A DNA stretch of 38,036 bases from Chloroflexota bacterium. Its GTDB lineage: Bacteria > Chloroflexota > Anaerolineae > Anaerolineales > Villigracilaceae. This document shows, piece by piece, positions 7,776 through 16,170 of this stretch. The stretch is from the NCBI GenBank assembly GCA_016191985.1, contig JACPVB010000195.1, positions 1-38,036 of the forward strand, given 5' to 3'. Under the pieces are notes generated by a model, which was not told the origin of the DNA, did no database searches, and saw only the letters and a list, made by a program, of their open reading frames with translations. The translations under genes were made by a program, and so were the position numbers. Within the stretch, counting starts at the first letter, position 1. Each line of letters starts with the position of its first letter.

Positions 7776-8348
7776 CTATCTTATATTTGGTGAAAAACGC
7801 AGCCGGCGCGCCAGCAGGATGACAATTACAAAAGCCAGGGCCATCACAACCATTCCGGGCACGCCATAATCATCAATGAAGCCGGTGTTGGGCAGGGCCG
7901 TGGTGGTCGGGACAATAGTCAACTGGGCGGCGGCGGCCTGGGTCAATGCCGCGCCGACAGTGGCTGTGGCAGCGGCGGGAGTGCCGTCCAATGAGGCGGT
8001 TCCAGCAGAGGCATCTGGGGTGAGGGTGGCTTTGGCAACATTGACGACCGCCGTCGGCTCGGGTGTGGATGTGGTGGTGGGCAATATCGAAGCCTCGAAG
8101 GTGGCGGTCAACGCATCATTGATAAAGTTATTAGACGCCTGGGCGGTCAGGGTAGCATTTGCGGCTTCGGCTTGAGCAGTGTTACTTCCTCGTAAACCAA
8201 ACAGGTATACCCCCACAAGGCAGGCAATGGAAAGCAGGATGATCCCGCCTAAAATACCGACGGCAACAAGAAAAGTGCGGTTGTTGTTCGACTCTTCGGG
8301 CAGTTGGGCATCGTCAGATTCATCAAAATTGGTTTCATCGAAAGACAT
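7776..8348 (-). CDS. Small surface protein with LPxTG-like anchor
   Basis: 190 aa. An acidic N-terminus (1-23) is followed by a membrane helix (about 25-51), then an Ala/Thr-rich low-complexity region (55-150), LPNTG (152-156), a second hydrophobic helix (165-180) and a basic tail RRLR. The second half is a textbook cell-wall-sorting layout. The first helix has no signal-peptidase site, so the protein may stay doubly anchored. The composition resembles stalk-like surface proteins. The start ATG 8348 has AGGAGAG 7 nt upstream. The 138-nt gap to the next gene upstream holds only a small hairpin (GACC-ATCA-GGTC). No function can be assigned. Confidence 0.7.
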   Translation of the reverse strand: MSFDETNFDESDDAQLPEESNNNRTFLVAVGILGGIILLSIACLVGVYLFGLRGSNTAQAEAANATLTAQASNNFINDALTATFEASILPTTTSTPEPTAVVNVAKATLTPDASAGTASLDGTPAAATATVGAALTQAAAAQLTIVPTTTALPNTGFIDDYGVPGMVVMALAFVIVILLARRLRFSPNIR

Positions 8349-8486: not shown

Positions 8487-9542
8487 TTATCCCACAACTT
8501 CAAGGTTTACGAGAGGCGCAGTGACCGTTTCGTCGTTCTCAAGTTTTACTTCCGCGGCAGGCGCGCGCAGACCGCTCGGCAGAGTGCTCAACCCGGGTTT
8601 GATGGCGATAATCGAACCGATCATTCCCATGAACGGCGGACGCCTCATCCGCACCTGCAAGCCCGGCGCGAAGGTTTCCACTTCCCTCGGCGCGGGCGGG
8701 TTCGATGAAATGGGAAGGGGAATGATCACTTCCGGCTTTGCACCGCTGTACCGGTCGAACATTTCCGCGTTTACCGTCACGTCCCGTTTGGCATTCGTGC
8801 TCAACAATTTAAATGCGGCGGAATTCATCGGCAGGGCGCCGAATCCATCCGTGATCATGATCGGGTAACGCATCTCACGCGCGGTTTGAAGCAGGGATGG
8901 AAAAATGCTGGAAAGGATCAACCCGCGCACAGGCAGGTCGGCAGCGGCTTGCAGGGTCTCCGCATCCTTCACCATGCCTCCCAAAATAATGGAACCGCGC
9001 AGGCTGATATCCAGTTTGGCGGTGGTTAGAACGCCATCCTGTTTTTCAGCGATATTAACCAGCAAACCCGAGTCGATGCGCCCGTTACCCCACACGCCCT
9101 GCACCAACGCGCCCGCTGTTTGGATCACAGCGCCGCGATTTGGCATCACTTCAATGATCGTGCCGGGAATACCGGCCCGTAATTCCATTTTGGTCTCGCC
9201 CACTTCCATCAACACCTGGCCGCCGCCCACAGCCACCACACGTCCTTCGCGCGGGGTGCGAACGGAGCGCGGGAAGAGTCCTTTGCCCACGGCAATCTCA
9301 ACGCTGGCCGCAAGCTGATCGTCCACCTTGCATTTGATCAGTCGGTCGGCGGCATTGGGAGATACGCGCAGGATGCGCGCCACATCCAAAAGAATATGTT
9401 CACGCGCCCATTTTGTTTCGGCAACCACATCGTTCGGGCTGACCTTTTGATTCGGGCGCACGAGCACAGTCCCTGAAACGGGCAAAAGCCGTTCACGCAC
9501 TATGGAAGTAAGTCCGACAATATGATTAACAGGCGCCTGCAT
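8487..9542 (-). CDS. Conserved beta-rich protein, last gene of the MutL/PxWL operon
   Basis: 351 aa, soluble, no membrane helix. It looks built of short beta-barrel/hammerhead units: residues 15-45 contain SGTVLVRPNQKVSPNDVVAE, which resembles a lipoyl/biotinyl hammerhead, and residues 90-150 are a Gly/Val-rich strand set (EGRVVAVGGGQVLMEVG). Residues 185-235 form a Rossmann-like strand/helix stretch, and the C-terminal 60 residues a KOW/SH3-like barrel (PPFMGMIGSIIAI). I do not recognise an enzyme signature. The start ATG 9542 has GGAGG 9 nt upstream and lies 3 nt after the stop of the ASKHA gene, so the two are cotranscribed. A role with the MutL-like protein is inferred from this linkage only. 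Confidence 0.7.
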   Translation of the reverse strand: MQAPVNHIVGLTSIVRERLLPVSGTVLVRPNQKVSPNDVVAETKWAREHILLDVARILRVSPNAADRLIKCKVDDQLAASVEIAVGKGLFPRSVRTPREGRVVAVGGGQVLMEVGETKMELRAGIPGTIIEVMPNRGAVIQTAGALVQGVWGNGRIDSGLLVNIAEKQDGVLTTAKLDISLRGSIILGGMVKDAETLQAAADLPVRGLILSSIFPSLLQTAREMRYPIMITDGFGALPMNSAAFKLLSTNAKRDVTVNAEMFDRYSGAKPEVIIPLPISSNPPAPREVETFAPGLQVRMRRPPFMGMIGSIIAIKPGLSTLPSGLRAPAAEVKLENDETVTAPLVNLEVVG

Positions 9543-9545
9543 CTT

Positions 9546-11303
9546 CTACTCGCCTCCGAGGGTCCAATTCCATTTTTTGATCAATTCACGCCGCCGCACC
9601 GTATCGGATGGAAGTTCCAACGGGCGGCCACGCCCATCGAAGACCACGCCTAACGCCCCGCCGCTTACTGGGATGGTCCCACTGCGGCCGGGCCCAAAGC
9701 CGACATCCGCTCCGCGCAAGCCCTGGATCGTGAGCTTTCCCGTTTCTCCAATTGCCAATGGCAAAGTTTCAAGCGTGCCATACTTCAAATCCACACGCGC
9801 TTCCGCGCCGTTCTCGTAGTTCAATTTCGCTTTCAGAATCAGCGTGCCGTAACTGGCGGAAACCACCGGTGAAACAATCGTGCCCACGCTAAGGAACGCG
9901 CCGGATTCCAATACCTGCACAGGCAGGATGTTGTTTTGTGAAGCCGCCGCACCCAACAGGGGCAGCAGGTTGTTCTGGTCGAGGATGACCGTGGTCACAC
10001 CCACAGGCTGGATCGAGTCAAGGAGCAGGAGCAGGTTGTGGCCGGGGCGCGAAGCGTCGCTCAACGCGCCGCCTCCAGCGAGGATCGGCTCGAAAAGTGG
10101 AGTCAGGTTTGGTTTGATCGAGGCGATGTTCTGCGGAAAATCACGGCGCGCAGACTGCATCGCAAGGTATAGGGCCTGTCTCGCAACCGCCTGAGACATG
10201 GCCAGGTCTTCGCGGGTGGCTGCAATCGTGGAAGGGTAGAGGGATTTTTGATACAGGTAATCGCGCAGCACGCCATTGGAAATATCAAGCGATGACCAAC
10301 GCAAAATTTCTTCAAGTGTTGTGTAATTGAGCAGGCCTGGCAGGTTTTCGCCCAAACCAAATTGCGGCGAAACCTTCAGCGTGGATTTGCCGTTGAAGCC
10401 CGCGGCAATGACCGCCGCAGATGCGCCAAGGTCCACACTTAAGATTCCTTTTTTGGAACCGTATACTTTTGCGAGGAAGCGCACCATACGCCCGGTGGCA
10501 TACGCGGTGGGAAGCATGTGCCCGCCCGACCATAAGTCCAAAAGATCCACGCCTTTGATCTGCCGCTTGCGGATGTTGATGAACATGCGCGCAAGTTCAC
10601 GTTCCGCAGGATCGATATCTTCGGTTTCAAGGGATGGCCGCACATTGGGGCTGAAATGCAGGGAAGTGGCAAGCTCGCCTACCAGGGTCTTGACCTCCGC
10701 GCCCATCTTTTCGTTGCCCGCAAACAACACGGCGGGGCGTTTTTCCTGGGGCAGAAGAAAGCTGGCGAGACCGATGGGTTCAAGTAATTTTTGAATGGAA
10801 AGCGATGCGCCGCCGTCGGTGCCGCCGGTGATCAGAACGAGATCGGGCCGCAGGCGCAGGATGCTGTCTATTTGCTGGTCGGGCCTGCGCTGGTCGTTCA
10901 AGCCGATGGTATCCACAATGCGGGTATAGGTGGATTCCGTCAACCTGCGGGCGCTTTCCAGCGAGACGTCCTTGAGCAGGCCGACAACGACCGTCTTGAC
11001 AACCGGTCCTGCAGACAGGGTGACGACCAGCGCATCCACACCGGTCCCATTGGACTGGCTCGGCGTAATCAATCCGCGTGAAGCATCCAGCAGATTTTTC
11101 CCCAATATCTTTTGCAAACTCATGATGGCGTTGCGCGCGCCTTCCGCCACATCCTTGAAAGGAGCTTCCGCTGTGGTAGGCGCAGTACCGGATGCCACAA
11201 AGCGATATTCGCCTTCGATGACATCAAAAAGGACAGCGCGTGTATTCGCCGCGCCGACATCGATTGCGAGCAGGGAGTTACCGTCAACCAGTGAGGATGG
11301 CAT
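9546..11303 (-). CDS. Glutamate mutase L (MutL)-family ASKHA protein
   Basis: 585 aa. The N-terminus LLAIDVGAANTRAVLFD (12-28) is the phosphate-1 strand-turn of the ASKHA (actin/Hsp70/sugar kinase) fold. LRPDLVLITGGTDGG (about 150-164) matches the MutL family found beside adenosylcobalamin glutamate mutase in clostridia, and LSVDLGASAAVIAAG (about 290) is a second DxG nucleotide-binding turn. MutL itself has no settled function; a chaperone or reactivation role for B12 enzymes has been considered. No mutase subunit is encoded here. It sits instead among membrane proteins with gaps of 5 and 3 nt, so its partner is more likely a membrane assembly. The C-terminal 100 residues are beta-rich. Family assignment is firm; function is unknown. 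Confidence 0.82.
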   Translation of the reverse strand: MPSSLVDGNSLLAIDVGAANTRAVLFDVIEGEYRFVASGTAPTTAEAPFKDVAEGARNAIMSLQKILGKNLLDASRGLITPSQSNGTGVDALVVTLSAGPVVKTVVVGLLKDVSLESARRLTESTYTRIVDTIGLNDQRRPDQQIDSILRLRPDLVLITGGTDGGASLSIQKLLEPIGLASFLLPQEKRPAVLFAGNEKMGAEVKTLVGELATSLHFSPNVRPSLETEDIDPAERELARMFINIRKRQIKGVDLLDLWSGGHMLPTAYATGRMVRFLAKVYGSKKGILSVDLGASAAVIAAGFNGKSTLKVSPQFGLGENLPGLLNYTTLEEILRWSSLDISNGVLRDYLYQKSLYPSTIAATREDLAMSQAVARQALYLAMQSARRDFPQNIASIKPNLTPLFEPILAGGGALSDASRPGHNLLLLLDSIQPVGVTTVILDQNNLLPLLGAAASQNNILPVQVLESGAFLSVGTIVSPVVSASYGTLILKAKLNYENGAEARVDLKYGTLETLPLAIGETGKLTIQGLRGADVGFGPGRSGTIPVSGGALGVVFDGRGRPLELPSDTVRRRELIKKWNWTLGGE

Positions 11304-11308
11304 GATTG

Positions 11309-11998
11309 CTAAAAATTCCCGAAGAGTTTAAAGAAGTTGATGAGGGATGAAATGCGTTCGATCAATGCGGTGAGCGCGGCGGCGTACACGCCCGCAAAGA
11401 TCGCACCCAGCGTAATGCCGATAAAGATACGTCCCACCCAGGCAATAATTTCGATCACCTTCGGACGGCGCATGGAACCGTCCGCTTTGGGGCTTGCGCC
11501 GAAGTGGAAATAAACCAGCGAGAAGATCGTCCCAGCGAGGACAATCGACCCGTTGCCTATCGCCTCCATGAAGCCGATGTTGCGTGACGCGGCAGCGTTC
11601 AGGTCGAAGAAATTAATGGTCGCTTCCACCTGGGGGATAAGCGTGCCGATGACCGCTCCAGCCAGGATCACCGCTGCGCCTGCGCCGACCAAAAAGGCCA
11701 TCGTCATGCGCGCAACGCCAGACAGGCGTGACGAGGCTTTCATGAAAATAAACAGCACACCGAGCAATGGGACGGCTGCAAATATCTTTTCGTTAAGCGA
11801 ACCGAACCAGAGTGGGTACCCCAAACGTGGGATGAGCACCTGCCAAACCGCAATTGCGGCCACATATCCCGCAGACACCCCAACGAAAAGGTAAACCGCA
11901 ATTCGGAAGAGGGGGTTATCCCCTATCAGGTAACTGAAGATAAGGATGGTAAATATAAAGCTGATAACGCCGATGATCAGGTCGGGAGAAAAGGTCAT
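11309..11998 (-). CDS. Polytopic membrane protein of the MutL/PxWL operon
   Basis: 229 aa with about six hydrophobic segments: residues 7-25, 31-52, 73-87, 97-120, 145-165 and 186-212. Loops are short, with FGSLNEK and KADGSMRRPK the only clearly polar ones. No transporter signature is evident. The start ATG 11998 has GGGAGG upstream and begins 1 nt after the stop of the zinc-ribbon gene. The next gene (MutL-like) follows after 5 nt, so expression is coupled. It could be a membrane anchor or channel component for the ASKHA protein; that is inference. Confidence 0.7.
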   Translation of the reverse strand: MTFSPDLIIGVISFIFTILIFSYLIGDNPLFRIAVYLFVGVSAGYVAAIAVWQVLIPRLGYPLWFGSLNEKIFAAVPLLGVLFIFMKASSRLSGVARMTMAFLVGAGAAVILAGAVIGTLIPQVEATINFFDLNAAASRNIGFMEAIGNGSIVLAGTIFSLVYFHFGASPKADGSMRRPKVIEIIAWVGRIFIGITLGAIFAGVYAAALTALIERISSLINFFKLFGNF

Positions 11999-11999
11999 T

Positions 12000-14567
12000 C
12001 TATTTTGCCTCCCTTGCTGAGGCGCGGTCTCGCAGGCCCAGGGCTAAATTCCATAAACCACCGCCCAACACCAACGACATGGCAAGCAACATGCCGAGGC
12101 TGTAGGCATCCCAATAATTTCGCGCAGTGCCGGGACGCCCGGCGTTGTTCTGCTCGAACACTGCCCCGCCATATAAACCCGCCACCATGCCGCTGACCTG
12201 CTGCGAGTCGTAATATGGCTGGATCATGGGCGCGGCTTGTGCGCTGGTAATCACCACAAATGGAATATTGCCGCGCGCCGACTCAGTCTGTTCGATCCAC
12301 ACGCGGGCAGATTCAGCGTTATCTGTAATCAAAACCAAAGCCGCAAATTGCGAAAGCGAAGATACGCCCTCCAGCGAAGCAGAAGCCCAGGCCGGTTGCA
12401 GGGACATATCCAGCGGGCTGATGATATGCGGGTTTTGCGCAAAAGCATGAATGCCCAACTGTCCGCCGGGCAGGTAGCCCAGATTCAGGTAGGAGAATCC
12501 GCTATTTTTGTAATGCTCAGCCAAAGGTCCAGAAACGAAGCGCTCTGCCAGAATTGCACCTGTTTCGTTGGTGGAAATAAAAGTCAAACGTGGATGGCTA
12601 TAAAAGATCATTTGGTCAAAGAACGGAGCGGCGGCGGCTTCTATTTCACCAACGCGGGAGGCTTCGTAATCGACAGCCACCAGCACCGCCCCATCCGCCG
12701 GTATGGCGCGAGCCACATCCACGGCACCGCCGACTTCACGCGGAACACCCACAGGCATGGAAAAGATCGGTGCAGGCAGCAGCAAAGCAGCGATGACGAC
12801 CACAAAAACCATAAAGAAAAGGAACCAGCGTAAACCGCGCGAACCCCTCAGCGTGGAAAAGGAAGCGATTGGAACAGGGGCAGTTTCAGCCGCGAGGATT
12901 TGCTCCAGTAATTCGGCATGAGCCAATTGCTCGTCACTGGTTTGCAATCGGATCGAATAAGGCTTGGGCTTGCTGGTGGGTGAATAGCCCGGCACCGCCG
13001 GCAGCACGCCTTGCAAACCCGCCAGCGCCCCGCGAGACTCCAGGGTTTGGTCGCTGCTGACAAATGACGATGATAATGAGGGCAACGGCTCGTCCACCGG
13101 GCGCATGGCCTGCACCCACGATGGCAATTCGCCCGGAGCGATCGCATCGGTATTTGTGATCGGCGTCGGGCTGGAGGATGCGGGCAGATCCATTGCATTC
13201 GAAAGCCAGTCCGGCATTTCCGTGAACAGCTCATCCGTGGTCTCGCCTTTCGCTTCTTCTACAAAAGCTGGCGGTACCTCAAACGGCGTCTCTTTTTCAG
13301 GCGCGGGCGTCTCTGCGGTTGTGAAAGTGTTGAGCCAATCCGGCGAATCAAACGAAGCATCAGCCGGTTCAGCTTCAGCCGCTGTTTTTTCCTCGGGCTG
13401 TTCAAAAATGGATGCCTGCGGCGCGGCGGCTTTCAACCAATCAGGCAAGCCGGCAAGCGCATCCTCGTCTTTTGCGGGTAAATTTTCTTCTTCCTGCGCG
13501 GCTGGCAAAGGAATCGTCTCTTCATTGCCAGACAACCAGGCAGGCAGTTCGCCAGTACCTGAATCTTCGGCTTCCTTTTTCAACCATTTCGGAGTCGTAT
13601 CTTGAAGTGGCTTGGCGGCGCTTTCACCCTGATCGTTCAACCAGGCGGGCAATTCATCTTTGGAGGAAGGATCAAACGCCTCCACCTCACTCGAAGCTGG
13701 TCCTGTAAAAGCGGCAGAGTCGGTGCTTTGGTTTTTATCTTCCATACCTCGCAGCCAGTCCGGGGTGTCTTTGAGTTCATCCGCAGGTGAGTCCGCCGCT
13801 ATTTGGCGCAACCAATCCGGTGATTCGGATGCCTCCGGTGGGAACGCATTCGATGAACTATCGAAGGACGGGGGCTGTGCTTTTTTGGCATCATCTTCCG
13901 CAGCCATGCGGCGCAGCCAATCTGGCGTATCGTCGGCGGCGGATGTGGAAAAAATATCGTCAACCGCGGGCGTTTCGGCAGCCTTTTCCGTAGGCTTGGA
14001 ATCATCCGCATCACGGAACCATTCGGTCAGTTCATCTTTTTCATCGGCTTGTGATCCGGTTGGAGTCAAACTTGCCAGCCAAGAGGGAGTCTCCGCGTCA
14101 CCCGCAGTTTCCTCCTGGGCAAAGTCGGCCTTATCTCCTAATTCAACCCAGCGCACCTCGGATGATTCTGATGTGGATTTTTTGGGTTTGGGCGCCGCGC
14201 CAGTGATACTGGCCAGCCAGTCCGGCGTTTCATCTTCATCGCCATCGGCAGCCTGGGACCGCAAACCAGCCAAAAGGTCTTCTGTGTGAGATGCAGGCTG
14301 GGTCTGCCCGGGTTTTTGTGAGGCCTGTTGCCCTTCCTGTTGTTCGGTATTTCGCGCCGAGTCGCGCGCATCCCTTAGCCATTGCGGCAGGATCGGCTCG
14401 AGTTCAGCGGTATTTTTTTTGGTTGGAATCTGGCCGGGTTTAATGGGCGCATCCACACCCTTGAGAGGCCCGCTGCCCGGTTGCAGGCGAGACTGGCAAT
14501 GCTGGCAAAATTCCTGGTTCGCCGGATTGCTTTCACCGCAAACGGGGCATTTGATAATCTCCGCCAT
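12000..14567 (-). CDS. Zinc-ribbon, PxWL-repeat scaffold protein with two membrane helices
   Basis: 855 aa. Residues 1-30 are a zinc ribbon with CPVC (7, 10) and CQHC (21, 24). Residues 55-490 are acidic, Ser/Ala/Glu-rich and probably disordered. They carry 14 copies of a short motif [TSLM]PxWLxx, with Trp at about 63, 117, 163, 183 (WF variant), 217, 252, 271, 309, 328, 344, 377, 411, 454 and 484 (WV variant). A membrane helix (580-600) leads to a folded domain (605-815) and a second helix (822-845) with a basic tail. The zinc ribbon and repeats should be cytosolic and the domain external. The repeats look like docking motifs for one partner. Start ATG 14567 overlaps the previous stop (TAATG), with GGGGGG upstream. 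Not an enzyme I recognise. Confidence 0.75.
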   Translation of the reverse strand: MAEIIKCPVCGESNPANQEFCQHCQSRLQPGSGPLKGVDAPIKPGQIPTKKNTAELEPILPQWLRDARDSARNTEQQEGQQASQKPGQTQPASHTEDLLAGLRSQAADGDEDETPDWLASITGAAPKPKKSTSESSEVRWVELGDKADFAQEETAGDAETPSWLASLTPTGSQADEKDELTEWFRDADDSKPTEKAAETPAVDDIFSTSAADDTPDWLRRMAAEDDAKKAQPPSFDSSSNAFPPEASESPDWLRQIAADSPADELKDTPDWLRGMEDKNQSTDSAAFTGPASSEVEAFDPSSKDELPAWLNDQGESAAKPLQDTTPKWLKKEAEDSGTGELPAWLSGNEETIPLPAAQEEENLPAKDEDALAGLPDWLKAAAPQASIFEQPEEKTAAEAEPADASFDSPDWLNTFTTAETPAPEKETPFEVPPAFVEEAKGETTDELFTEMPDWLSNAMDLPASSSPTPITNTDAIAPGELPSWVQAMRPVDEPLPSLSSSFVSSDQTLESRGALAGLQGVLPAVPGYSPTSKPKPYSIRLQTSDEQLAHAELLEQILAAETAPVPIASFSTLRGSRGLRWFLFFMVFVVVIAALLLPAPIFSMPVGVPREVGGAVDVARAIPADGAVLVAVDYEASRVGEIEAAAAPFFDQMIFYSHPRLTFISTNETGAILAERFVSGPLAEHYKNSGFSYLNLGYLPGGQLGIHAFAQNPHIISPLDMSLQPAWASASLEGVSSLSQFAALVLITDNAESARVWIEQTESARGNIPFVVITSAQAAPMIQPYYDSQQVSGMVAGLYGGAVFEQNNAGRPGTARNYWDAYSLGMLLAMSLVLGGGLWNLALGLRDRASAREAK

Positions 14568-15178
14568 TATTGCCCCCCGTACGGACGGTCTACGCCGAAC
14601 AGTACACGTATGCCGGTGGTCAATGTGCCAAGCGCCACGCCGATCAAAATTCCGCGCGCGCCACCGAGGGCGAGGATCTGGCTAACCCAGGGACGGATCA
14701 ACGTGCCGATCAAAGGAATATCACCGGACCGCATCGTAGCAGAACCAAGGAAAAGCAGGGCTGCTGTCACCAAAAAGACGATGCCCATCATGTCTGTGCG
14801 ACGGCGCAGGAGGCGGATGGCCGCATACAGCAGGGAGATGGTCAGCACACCCATCAACGCGGCTTCGGCCGGGATGATGATGCCGCTCAACACAATTTGC
14901 ATTGCAGAATGCTGGGGGCGTAGGAGAATGCCGATAGTAAACGTGGCAACCAACCCGATGACAAGAAGCGCGCTGTAGGTGCTCCCTTTTTCACCACGGC
15001 GAATTTTATCTGTATGGACTGAAATCAAATTAAATATCCCCACCAGTGCGGCAGCCCCCGCAAGGATGATGGCCCAATTCAACAAAAGGGTTTGCACATC
15101 CGCCAGGGCCGGGAAGAAATAACCGCCTAATATCAAAACGCCAGTTGTAATGGCAATGAACGCAGTAATGACTCGCAT
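14567..15178 (-). CDS. Polytopic membrane protein of the MutL/PxWL operon
   Basis: 203 aa with about six hydrophobic segments: residues 5-25, 33-52, 70-87, 93-115, 128-148 and 160-190. A basic loop HTDKIRRGEKG lies between helices 2 and 3, and LLRRRTDMM between 4 and 5. No catalytic or transport motif is visible. The start ATG 15178 shares one base with the TAA stop of the preceding gene (TAATG), and its own stop shares one base with the zinc-ribbon start, so translation is coupled on both sides. No family name can be given from sequence alone. Confidence 0.7.
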   Translation of the reverse strand: MRVITAFIAITTGVLILGGYFFPALADVQTLLLNWAIILAGAAALVGIFNLISVHTDKIRRGEKGSTYSALLVIGLVATFTIGILLRPQHSAMQIVLSGIIIPAEAALMGVLTISLLYAAIRLLRRRTDMMGIVFLVTAALLFLGSATMRSGDIPLIGTLIRPWVSQILALGGARGILIGVALGTLTTGIRVLFGVDRPYGGQ

Positions 15179-15909
15179 TAGATGACCCCGAAAAATTTCG
15201 CCGCCGCGCCGACTAGGAGGGCGAGGATAATCAGCCAGCGCAAAATATCCTGTACAGTCAGGCTGGCGATGTGTGTTGCACCCGCGCCGAGATAGGCGCC
15301 AGCGGCAAACAATTCCTCACCGATCAATGCATCCTGAGTGTTTGCAAAAAGAACAGCCTGCCCGCTAAGGTTATCGCTTGCGCCAATCATGGTTACGCTT
15401 TCACGGTCTGAGGCATCGGCAAGCAGGGCCGCTTCAGGACCAAAATGCCCGAGCATGACGTTCGTGGAAACTTTCTCGTTTTGCGCAATGTGCATTGCAC
15501 CGGCCGCAAACCCAAAGGGACTTAACCCGGTAATGCGGCCTGCAGTTGGGACATACAATTCACTTACGCCGGCAGCTTGATACCCAGCCTGCAAGGTATC
15601 CTGTGTAAGCAGGCCAAGCACAGGGTCACCGGAAGAGGCAACTACGGGCATGTCACTGACGGATGTTTTTTCCGCAATGATCCGCAGGGTTGCCAACCCA
15701 GCCAGCGCCGAGCCTCCGCGCGCATCCAGCAGGCTCCCGCGCCCAAGTGAAATATGCAGGCGGGTGCCGTCTTCCACACTTAGTCCTAACATGCGGTATA
15801 GGCGGGTTAGGGCGGGGATGTCACGCAGCCTGGCGGGGGAATTTCTTTTCCATAAAGTAATCCCCAGCAAAAGTGCGGCGGTAAAGACAATCACCAACAA
15901 GGCGGTCAT
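15178..15909 (-). CDS. Membrane-anchored domain protein (possibly DUF6754-like)
   Basis: 243 aa. One N-terminal helix (2-17) and one C-terminal helix (about 222-240) flank an alpha/beta domain. The domain contains GTRLHISLGRGSLLDARGG, later AGRITGLSPFGFAAG, and then MIGASDNLSGQAVLFANTQ. From memory this pattern resembles a domain annotated DUF6754 in Chloroflexota; I cannot confirm that here. Gly/Ala-rich turns suggest a Rossmann-like core, but no nucleotide-binding loop is obvious. The start ATG 15909 overlaps the stop of the 81-aa gene by ATGA. Its place as second gene of the seven-gene operon points to a shared envelope function. Confidence 0.65.
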   Translation of the reverse strand: MTALLVIVFTAALLLGITLWKRNSPARLRDIPALTRLYRMLGLSVEDGTRLHISLGRGSLLDARGGSALAGLATLRIIAEKTSVSDMPVVASSGDPVLGLLTQDTLQAGYQAAGVSELYVPTAGRITGLSPFGFAAGAMHIAQNEKVSTNVMLGHFGPEAALLADASDRESVTMIGASDNLSGQAVLFANTQDALIGEELFAAGAYLGAGATHIASLTVQDILRWLIILALLVGAAAKFFGVI

Positions 15910-16151
15910 TGGCCTGCTCCCTCGTGCTCCAGGAAGAATGCAAATGCACGCGCTTCTGTTTCCTCTTCAAGTGTTTCCGCAAGCGCGATCAATTGATCGC
16001 TTTTTACAAAACCGCCGCTAAAATAAATCGCCTGCGCTCCAAGCAAGGCAAGAGGACTTCCTGCTTCAAGGAACGAGGCGACCAGATTGTGAAGTTGATA
16101 TCGGCGCAAGGACTCAGCCCAGCGCGGCCAAAATTCGCGCGGTGACTTCAT
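15906..16151 (-). CDS. Small 81-aa helical protein, first gene of the MutL/PxWL operon
   Basis: 81 aa, no signal peptide. It starts MKSPREFWPRWAESLRRYQL, has a moderately hydrophobic middle (AGSPLALLGAQAIYFSGG, about 30-48), and ends in an acidic helix (ETLEEETEARAFAFFLEHEG). It could be a peripheral membrane or adaptor protein. The ATG at 16151 lies only 10 nt after a TATACT hexamer, leaving no room for a ribosome-binding site, so it probably heads a leaderless message. It overlaps the next gene by 4 nt. The four-base overlap and the promoter argue it is a real gene. Confidence 0.6.
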   Translation of the reverse strand: MKSPREFWPRWAESLRRYQLHNLVASFLEAGSPLALLGAQAIYFSGGFVKSDQLIALAETLEEETEARAFAFFLEHEGAGQ

Positions 16152-16161
16152 AGTTAATGCG

Positions 16162-16170
16162 AGTATAGCA
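16162..16170 (-). promoter_or_regulatory. Extended -10 promoter of the seven-gene operon
   Basis: The minus strand reads TGCTATACT, 10 nt before the ATG at 16151. The start point should fall 3-4 nt before the ATG, giving a leaderless mRNA. No good -35 is seen. The TGC extension matches the promoters at 2936 and 3755. Confidence 0.45.

Follow-up and report, generated by a model that had tools for sequence, protein, structure and literature searches.

Energy-coupling factor (ECF) transporters combine a shared energising module with many substrate modules. In type IV pili, the actin-like protein PilM binds a conserved N-terminal peptide of PilN (PMC5805733). These two are the closest working analogies, neither of them amounting to family membership, for an operon in a 38,036-nucleotide stretch of DNA, hereafter the window, from a Chloroflexota bacterium of the Villigracilaceae (assembly GCA_016191985.1, contig JACPVB010000195.1, positions 1 to 38,036). 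Its genes, g1 to g7, fall into a membrane cassette, g2-g3-g4-g5 (module A), and a hub (module B) made up of g6, a MutL-like protein of the acetate and sugar kinase/Hsc70/actin (ASKHA) fold, its partner g7 and often g1. The sole family labels in this system are DUF6754 (PF20539), to which g2 belongs and which is a name only, and a misleading mutase-accessory name for g6; full-text searches of the open-licence literature returned no relevant paper for DUF6754 or for the GlmL-type name. A system of seven genes that is conserved among distant bacteria, and whose membrane core extends to archaea, appears to lack a described function.

The likeness to ECF transporters would lie in the way of working, that is, few hubs and many membrane modules near catabolic genes. 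However, an ASKHA protein stands where an ATP-binding cassette (ABC) ATPase would be expected (there is no ABC_tran match in the operon), and there is no sequence relation. With PilM-PilN the g6 system would share the use of an actin-fold cytosolic protein together with membrane proteins carrying short motifs (PMC5805733), yet g6 belongs to a different ASKHA family, and the motif in question, PxWL, is repeated up to 58 times and is all but confined to Chloroflexota. Pfam and NCBIfam searches of g1-g5 and g7 found no relatives of PilN, PilO or PilQ and no pilus match.

Two co-occurring gene modules

The first-pass annotation of the window had described seven coupled genes on the minus strand. 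They were found exactly where it had placed them, and all six junctions agreed to the nucleotide: from g1 to g7, an ATGA overlap, two TAATG overlaps and gaps of 1, 5 and 3 nucleotides. The count of seven is right for g1-g7; overlooked was a conserved eighth gene, g8, which starts 138 nucleotides beyond g7 on the same strand. Open reading frames (ORFs) were called from length and profile criteria, not with trained gene-finding software.

DUF6754 is present in 57 of 61 close genomes and in 67 of 301 Chloroflexota genomes sampled evenly. Of these 67, 53 have a MutL gene 2.2-6.3 kb further downstream on the contig and strand of DUF6754; it is on another contig in 12 and was not found in 2. In all 42 Chloroflexota loci that were profiled gene by gene, g2-g6 are present on one strand, accompanied by g1 in 39 and g7 in 36. 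The order is colinear in 41 of them, the exception (L051) being an artefact of an ORF start. The neighbourhood comparison proposed in the annotation, which asked whether the genes scatter in related genomes, therefore shows the order to be kept, and the same order recurs in Bacillota, where g1-g7 appear in exact succession in L107 (JAAYHI010000001.1) and L292-L296.

A DUF6754 scan of species-representative genomes found relatives in Bacillota, Planctomycetota, archaeal metagenome-assembled genomes (MAGs) and others, among the matches listed; the cassette survey rests largely on MAGs, whose names are used as deposited. Prevalence in Bacillota is limited (32 of 399 sampled genomes). Outside Chloroflexota the order g2-g3-g4-g5 is held, also as a stand-alone unit: complete four-gene runs in this order number 63 in the 76 loci fetched around cassettes or hubs, and the median spacing between successive genes is 11, 11 and 13 nucleotides. 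MutL occurs in all 20 non-Chloroflexota genomes with DUF6754, and 17 of them have a g6-like frame of at least 580 residues, those in the rest being shorter or fragmentary. In other phyla g1 travels with the hub (beside g6-g7 in L154, L224 and L298). Several Chloroflexota families and classes have g6-g7 without DUF6754, so the dependence runs one way. Copy numbers are also unequal. In F. carboniphilus (CP062796), five g6-g7 pairs stand against 13 cassette loci, two archaeal MAGs have four to five DUF6754 genes and one MutL each, genome G365 has 27 DUF6754 genes, and in genome G681 a tandem array on one strand comprises seven DUF6754 cassettes (L288, L289). With many cassettes and few hubs, one hub probably serves several cassettes. 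An M20-type peptidase-like gene was also seen near the tandem cassettes of G681.

Judged from sequence, modules A and B are real, conserved and co-occurring across phyla, and they very probably form a two-module assembly. The earlier proposal, that the genes encode a membrane-bound assembly so far undescribed and built around a MutL-like ASKHA protein, gains support from this colinearity and from the independence of g6 from mutases.

As for the cassette itself, g2 had been described as a membrane-anchored domain protein, which is correct and can now be made more exact: it matches PF20539 with an E-value of 6e-27 (94.8 bits against a gathering score of 27). Its AlphaFold2 model (predicted local distance difference test, pLDDT, 95.9) shows a Rossmann-like domain between two transmembrane (TM) helices. 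By the positive-inside rule (over 119 relatives in the case of g2), the mean charges flanking the helices indicate an inner position for the domain of g2 and an outer one for that of g4; the former would accordingly face the cytosol and the g4 core domain the exterior. Some DUF6754 proteins carry N-terminal extensions read from their sequences as secreted and FN3-like (L149:7583-10738, L163:2746-4668, L136 and L158; L149 also has HEAT repeats), which agrees with the charge-based topology. Outside Chloroflexota (Bacillota, archaea), g4 is mostly about 280 residues long and consists of two TM helices around one domain, with no scaffold; g3 and g5 are kept in cassettes across phyla. A sequence search of the PDB returned nothing for g2 or g6 and chance-level matches only for the g4 core. 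Among paralogous cassettes, mean identity is 0.42-0.46 for g2 versus 0.31-0.39 for g3-g5. That g2 is the best-conserved subunit fits a common cytosolic docking side combined with diversified membrane and outside parts, a reading qualified by the faster divergence of g4 than of g2 also between single-copy operons.

Homology within the cassette, as if an ancestral gene pair had been duplicated (g2 with the g4 domain, g3 with g5), was considered and is not claimed. For g2 and the g4 domain the profile comparison is marginal (1 of 100 shuffles reaches the score). For g3 and g5 it is unsupported (5 of 100 shuffles; 22 of 100 for the C-terminal halves). Apparent g5-g6 fusions in some loci are artefacts of upstream ORF starts.

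g6 and the mutase question

The MutL-family assignment of g6 was borne out by a match to PF13941 (E-value 9e-60; 203 bits against a cut-off of 27), and the ASKHA motifs DxG and GGG are retained. This common Pfam family, together with true GlmL-type proteins that adjoin mutase genes elsewhere in Chloroflexota (L069, L071), is what would favour reading g6 as the cobalamin-mutase accessory GlmL, placed in a membrane operon by chance. We consider this extremely improbable. The more specific NCBIfam models score g6 far below their cut-offs (GlmL 94.8 bits against 475, GlmL-family 65.8 against 204, Or-4 49.1 against 600). In a quick tree, 15 short GlmL/Or-4 proteins form one clade with a Shimodaira-Hasegawa-like approximate likelihood ratio (SH-aLRT) support of 100, and g6-type proteins stand apart. 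GlmE is above its cut-off in only 4 of the 301 Chloroflexota genomes, and none was found above it in the genome of the window, which is 78% complete. In other words, the ASKHA domains of g6 and GlmL/Or-4 are homologous, phosphate and adenosine motifs included, whereas g6 lacks a mutase partner, has an additional C-terminal domain and the fixed partners g7 and g1, and stands on a tree branch of its own. The stretch GGxxGLIIDARGRPL near the C-terminus is common to g6-type proteins and missing from GlmL. The MutL-like protein, for which co-occurrence with cobalamin mutases alone had been raised as a test, thus does not depend on them. Whatever the function of the system, many 'GlmL' and 'MutL' annotations in these organisms should not be taken as evidence for glutamate mutase.

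Possible function and its alternatives

Indications of function come from the genes that follow the cassettes. Downstream of 93 cassettes, ten genes of at least 250 residues lie within 80 nucleotides, both limits having been set after the loci were viewed. Six encode amidohydrolases, three of them nearest to Xaa-Pro dipeptidase, and the other four comprise one creatininase, one DUF885 protein, one permease-like protein and one unknown. Amidohydrolases account for 6 of 10 genes in this tight set versus 5 of 109 genes located four or more genes away (Fisher p 2e-5, uncorrected for kinship). Upstream of cassettes there are RpiR- and IclR-like regulators (by sequence reading) and beta-lactamase2 genes. 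Such catabolic genes usually adjoin a transporter for their substrate. The operon partners therefore indicate that the system may take part in the uptake or use of peptides or amides, and the tight amidohydrolases suggest solute transport served by the shared ASKHA hub, which we regard as possible rather than probable. The annotation had thought of export, envelope or stress machinery; nothing specific supports these, and the partners point rather to peptide or amide uptake or use.

The best explanation we can offer, held tentatively and a little short of even confidence, is a full two-module transport model. Module A would be a four-subunit membrane complex of g2, g3, the C-terminal part of g4 and g5, with two polytopic proteins, the Rossmann-like domain of g2 in the cytosol and the alpha/beta-like domain of g4 outside. 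Module B would be a cytosolic hub in which g6, with g7 and often g1, would act on many cassettes, which it would drive or gate at the expense of ATP; the solutes moved by the cassette would be peptide- or amide-like. In Chloroflexota, the zinc-ribbon/PxWL chain fused to g4 might anchor multiple copies of a cytosolic protein, g6 or g7 being the likeliest, to the complex. It is tempting to go further and speculate about a new class of ATP-dependent transporters in bacteria and archaea, in which a shared ASKHA hub replaces the ABC ATPase of a four-subunit cassette, with many substrate-specific copies in peptide-using Bacillota and a multivalent PxWL tether in Chloroflexota. This larger claim we regard as somewhat unlikely. 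If the transport reading were true, the system would be an energised membrane machine of a kind that the known transporter classes do not cover.

Several observations weigh against transport. The fold of g2 matches no known transporter part: a fold search against the PDB gave no hit below an E-value of 1e-3, and the closest folds were generic ones of the Rossmann and SIS types. Hubs without cassettes in several Chloroflexota classes imply another job for the hub there. The set of tight neighbours is small and drawn partly from the same genomes, so that its members are not independent, and at distance 1 the amidohydrolase excess is weak (12 of 115 versus 5 of 109, p 0.08). The single-copy operon of Chloroflexota lacks catabolic neighbours; in the window it has glgC and a phosphomutase gene beside it. 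The g6 of the window has GASAAV as the second phosphate motif in place of the GGATTD of non-Chloroflexota relatives, so its ATPase activity may be weakened. In Chloroflexia-like genomes (e.g. G174 and G222; L184-L188), g7 lies apart from the operon, often or mostly beside response regulators and near the ATP synthase operon. Finally, an unrelated TPR protein of the same genome (L175:6809-10075, contig C52) has about 14 PxWL/PxWV motifs between TPR-like ends, so the receptor of the motif need not be g6 or g7.

These points leave room for other readings. One is an envelope scaffold resembling PilM, in which g6 would bind short peptides of its membrane partners and organise an assembly of the envelope without any movement of solutes, with g8 as part of the outside face. 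An ASKHA protein beside membrane proteins, the PilM-PilN precedent (PMC5805733), the short motif PxWL repeated on a membrane protein, and the LPxTG of g8 together with sortases in the genome all speak for it. Against this, Pfam yielded no match to any pilus or envelope family, both PxWL and g8 are additions of particular lineages that the widespread core lacks, and a structural role sits poorly with the large number of paralogous cassettes next to hydrolases. We regard it as unlikely.

The features of g7 have suggested a different alternative. The annotation had called this protein beta-rich, with which its AlphaFold2 model (pLDDT 91) agrees. A Foldseek search gave domain-level matches only, to lipoyl/RnfC-like and swivel-like parts; the C-terminal domain has profile matches to the KOW domain of SPT5/NusG, and relatives of g7 match Biotin_lipoyl and RnfC_N weakly. 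A complex that couples energy or acts as a membrane enzyme, in the manner of Rnf or a biotin decarboxylase and with g7 as the carrier or electron-transfer arm, could account for these matches, for the proximity of g7 to the ATP synthase operon of several Chloroflexia, and for cassettes that follow a PYC_OADA gene in L145 (8180-9586) and L152 (2115-4114), the latter also with a biotin-carrier-like gene. However, the family search found no Fe-S, flavin, heme or biotinylation site, the most conserved residues of g7 are mainly glycines, its KOW end is not Rnf-like, and the PYC_OADA neighbour is limited to two related genomes (Methanomethylicota-related MAGs). Such a complex is very unlikely in our judgement, and a signalling or sensory membrane complex marginally more so. 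The latter would explain why g7 of Chloroflexia has response regulators as neighbours, why two-component genes follow cassettes in L142 and L300, and why a GGDEF-type protein is encoded ahead of cassettes in L142 and in L166, but these neighbours vary by genome and the cassettes themselves have no signalling domains.

Chloroflexota additions and operon surroundings

The annotation had treated a zinc-ribbon protein with 14 motifs, g4, as a multivalent scaffold at the centre of the assembly. The zinc ribbon stands (two CxxC pairs, CPVC and CQHC), and the motifs are 13 PxW[LV] plus one degenerate TEWF; composition-preserving shuffles gave 0.2 PxW[LV] motifs on average and at most 4 in 20,000. Its status as a core part found no support in the comparison across phyla: outside Chloroflexota no zinc ribbon was found in g4 and there is nearly no PxWL, and the zinc-ribbon/PxWL scaffold is, on these sequences, a Chloroflexota add-on. 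In hub-only Chloroflexota, the gene directly upstream of g6 often encodes a soluble zinc-ribbon protein with 3-14 PxWL motifs (L052-L055, L057, L062) or one with zinc ribbons at least (L056, L060), and g4 of Anaerolineae and Chloroflexia carries a chain of this type as an N-terminal fusion. Being fused in some lineages and separate in others, the scaffold is tied to both g6-g7 and the membrane complex. The longest arrays are in the g4 proteins of L105 (2661 residues, 58 PxWL-type motifs) and L109 (2398 residues, 47 motifs). PxWL is a candidate for a short cytosolic peptide bound by an ASKHA protein; that it binds g6 or g7 is conceivable, at rather less than an even chance, and the array in the TPR protein suggests that PxWL proteins of these cells share a receptor. 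The gene for that TPR protein sits in a housekeeping neighbourhood (ndk, thymidine phosphorylase-like).

Gene g8 is found in 30 of the 42 Chloroflexota loci, and LPxTG in 19 of 26 near-complete members. In the window, the order is an acidic N-terminus, a TM helix, a Thr/Pro-rich linker, LPNTG, a second TM helix and RRLR. LPNTG, the hydrophobic helix and the basic tail are those of a sortase substrate, and the genome has three sortase matches. The acidic stretch of about 25 residues before the first helix is unlike a usual signal peptide, as judged by inspection rather than by a predictor. A conserved PEExxNRTF motif also precedes this helix.

The features are collected in Table 1. No Pfam family was found above the cut-off for g1, g3, g5 or g7.

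Table 1. Positions and properties of the operon features, numbered from the first nucleotide of the window
Feature	Position	Strand	Description
g1	15906..16151	minus	81 aa, helical, no family
g2	15178..15909	minus	243 aa, DUF6754; TM helix, Rossmann-like alpha/beta domain, TM helix
g3	14567..15178	minus	203 aa, polytopic (about 6 TM), no family
g4, entire	12000..14567	minus	855 aa, scaffold and C-terminal core
g4, N-terminal scaffold	12948..14567	minus	zinc ribbon, 13 PxW[LV] motifs, acidic linker
g4, C-terminal core	12000..12947	minus	TM, alpha/beta-like domain (predicted extracellular), TM
g5	11309..11998	minus	229 aa, polytopic (5-7 TM), no family
g6	9546..11303	minus	585 aa, MutL-family ASKHA protein; GGxLGxxxDxRGRPL domain at the C-terminus
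g7	8487..9542	minus	351 aa; lipoyl/RnfC-like and swivel-like beta domains, C-terminal KOW-like domain
g8	7776..8348	minus	190 aa, LPxTG-type protein; Anaerolineae-type loci

Simple promoter and terminator scans were little informative (10 promoter-like sites versus 4.5 expected). Elsewhere in the window, at 1108-2736, a single protein combines an AAA/Spore_III_AA-like ATPase, a PTPase-named domain and R3H.

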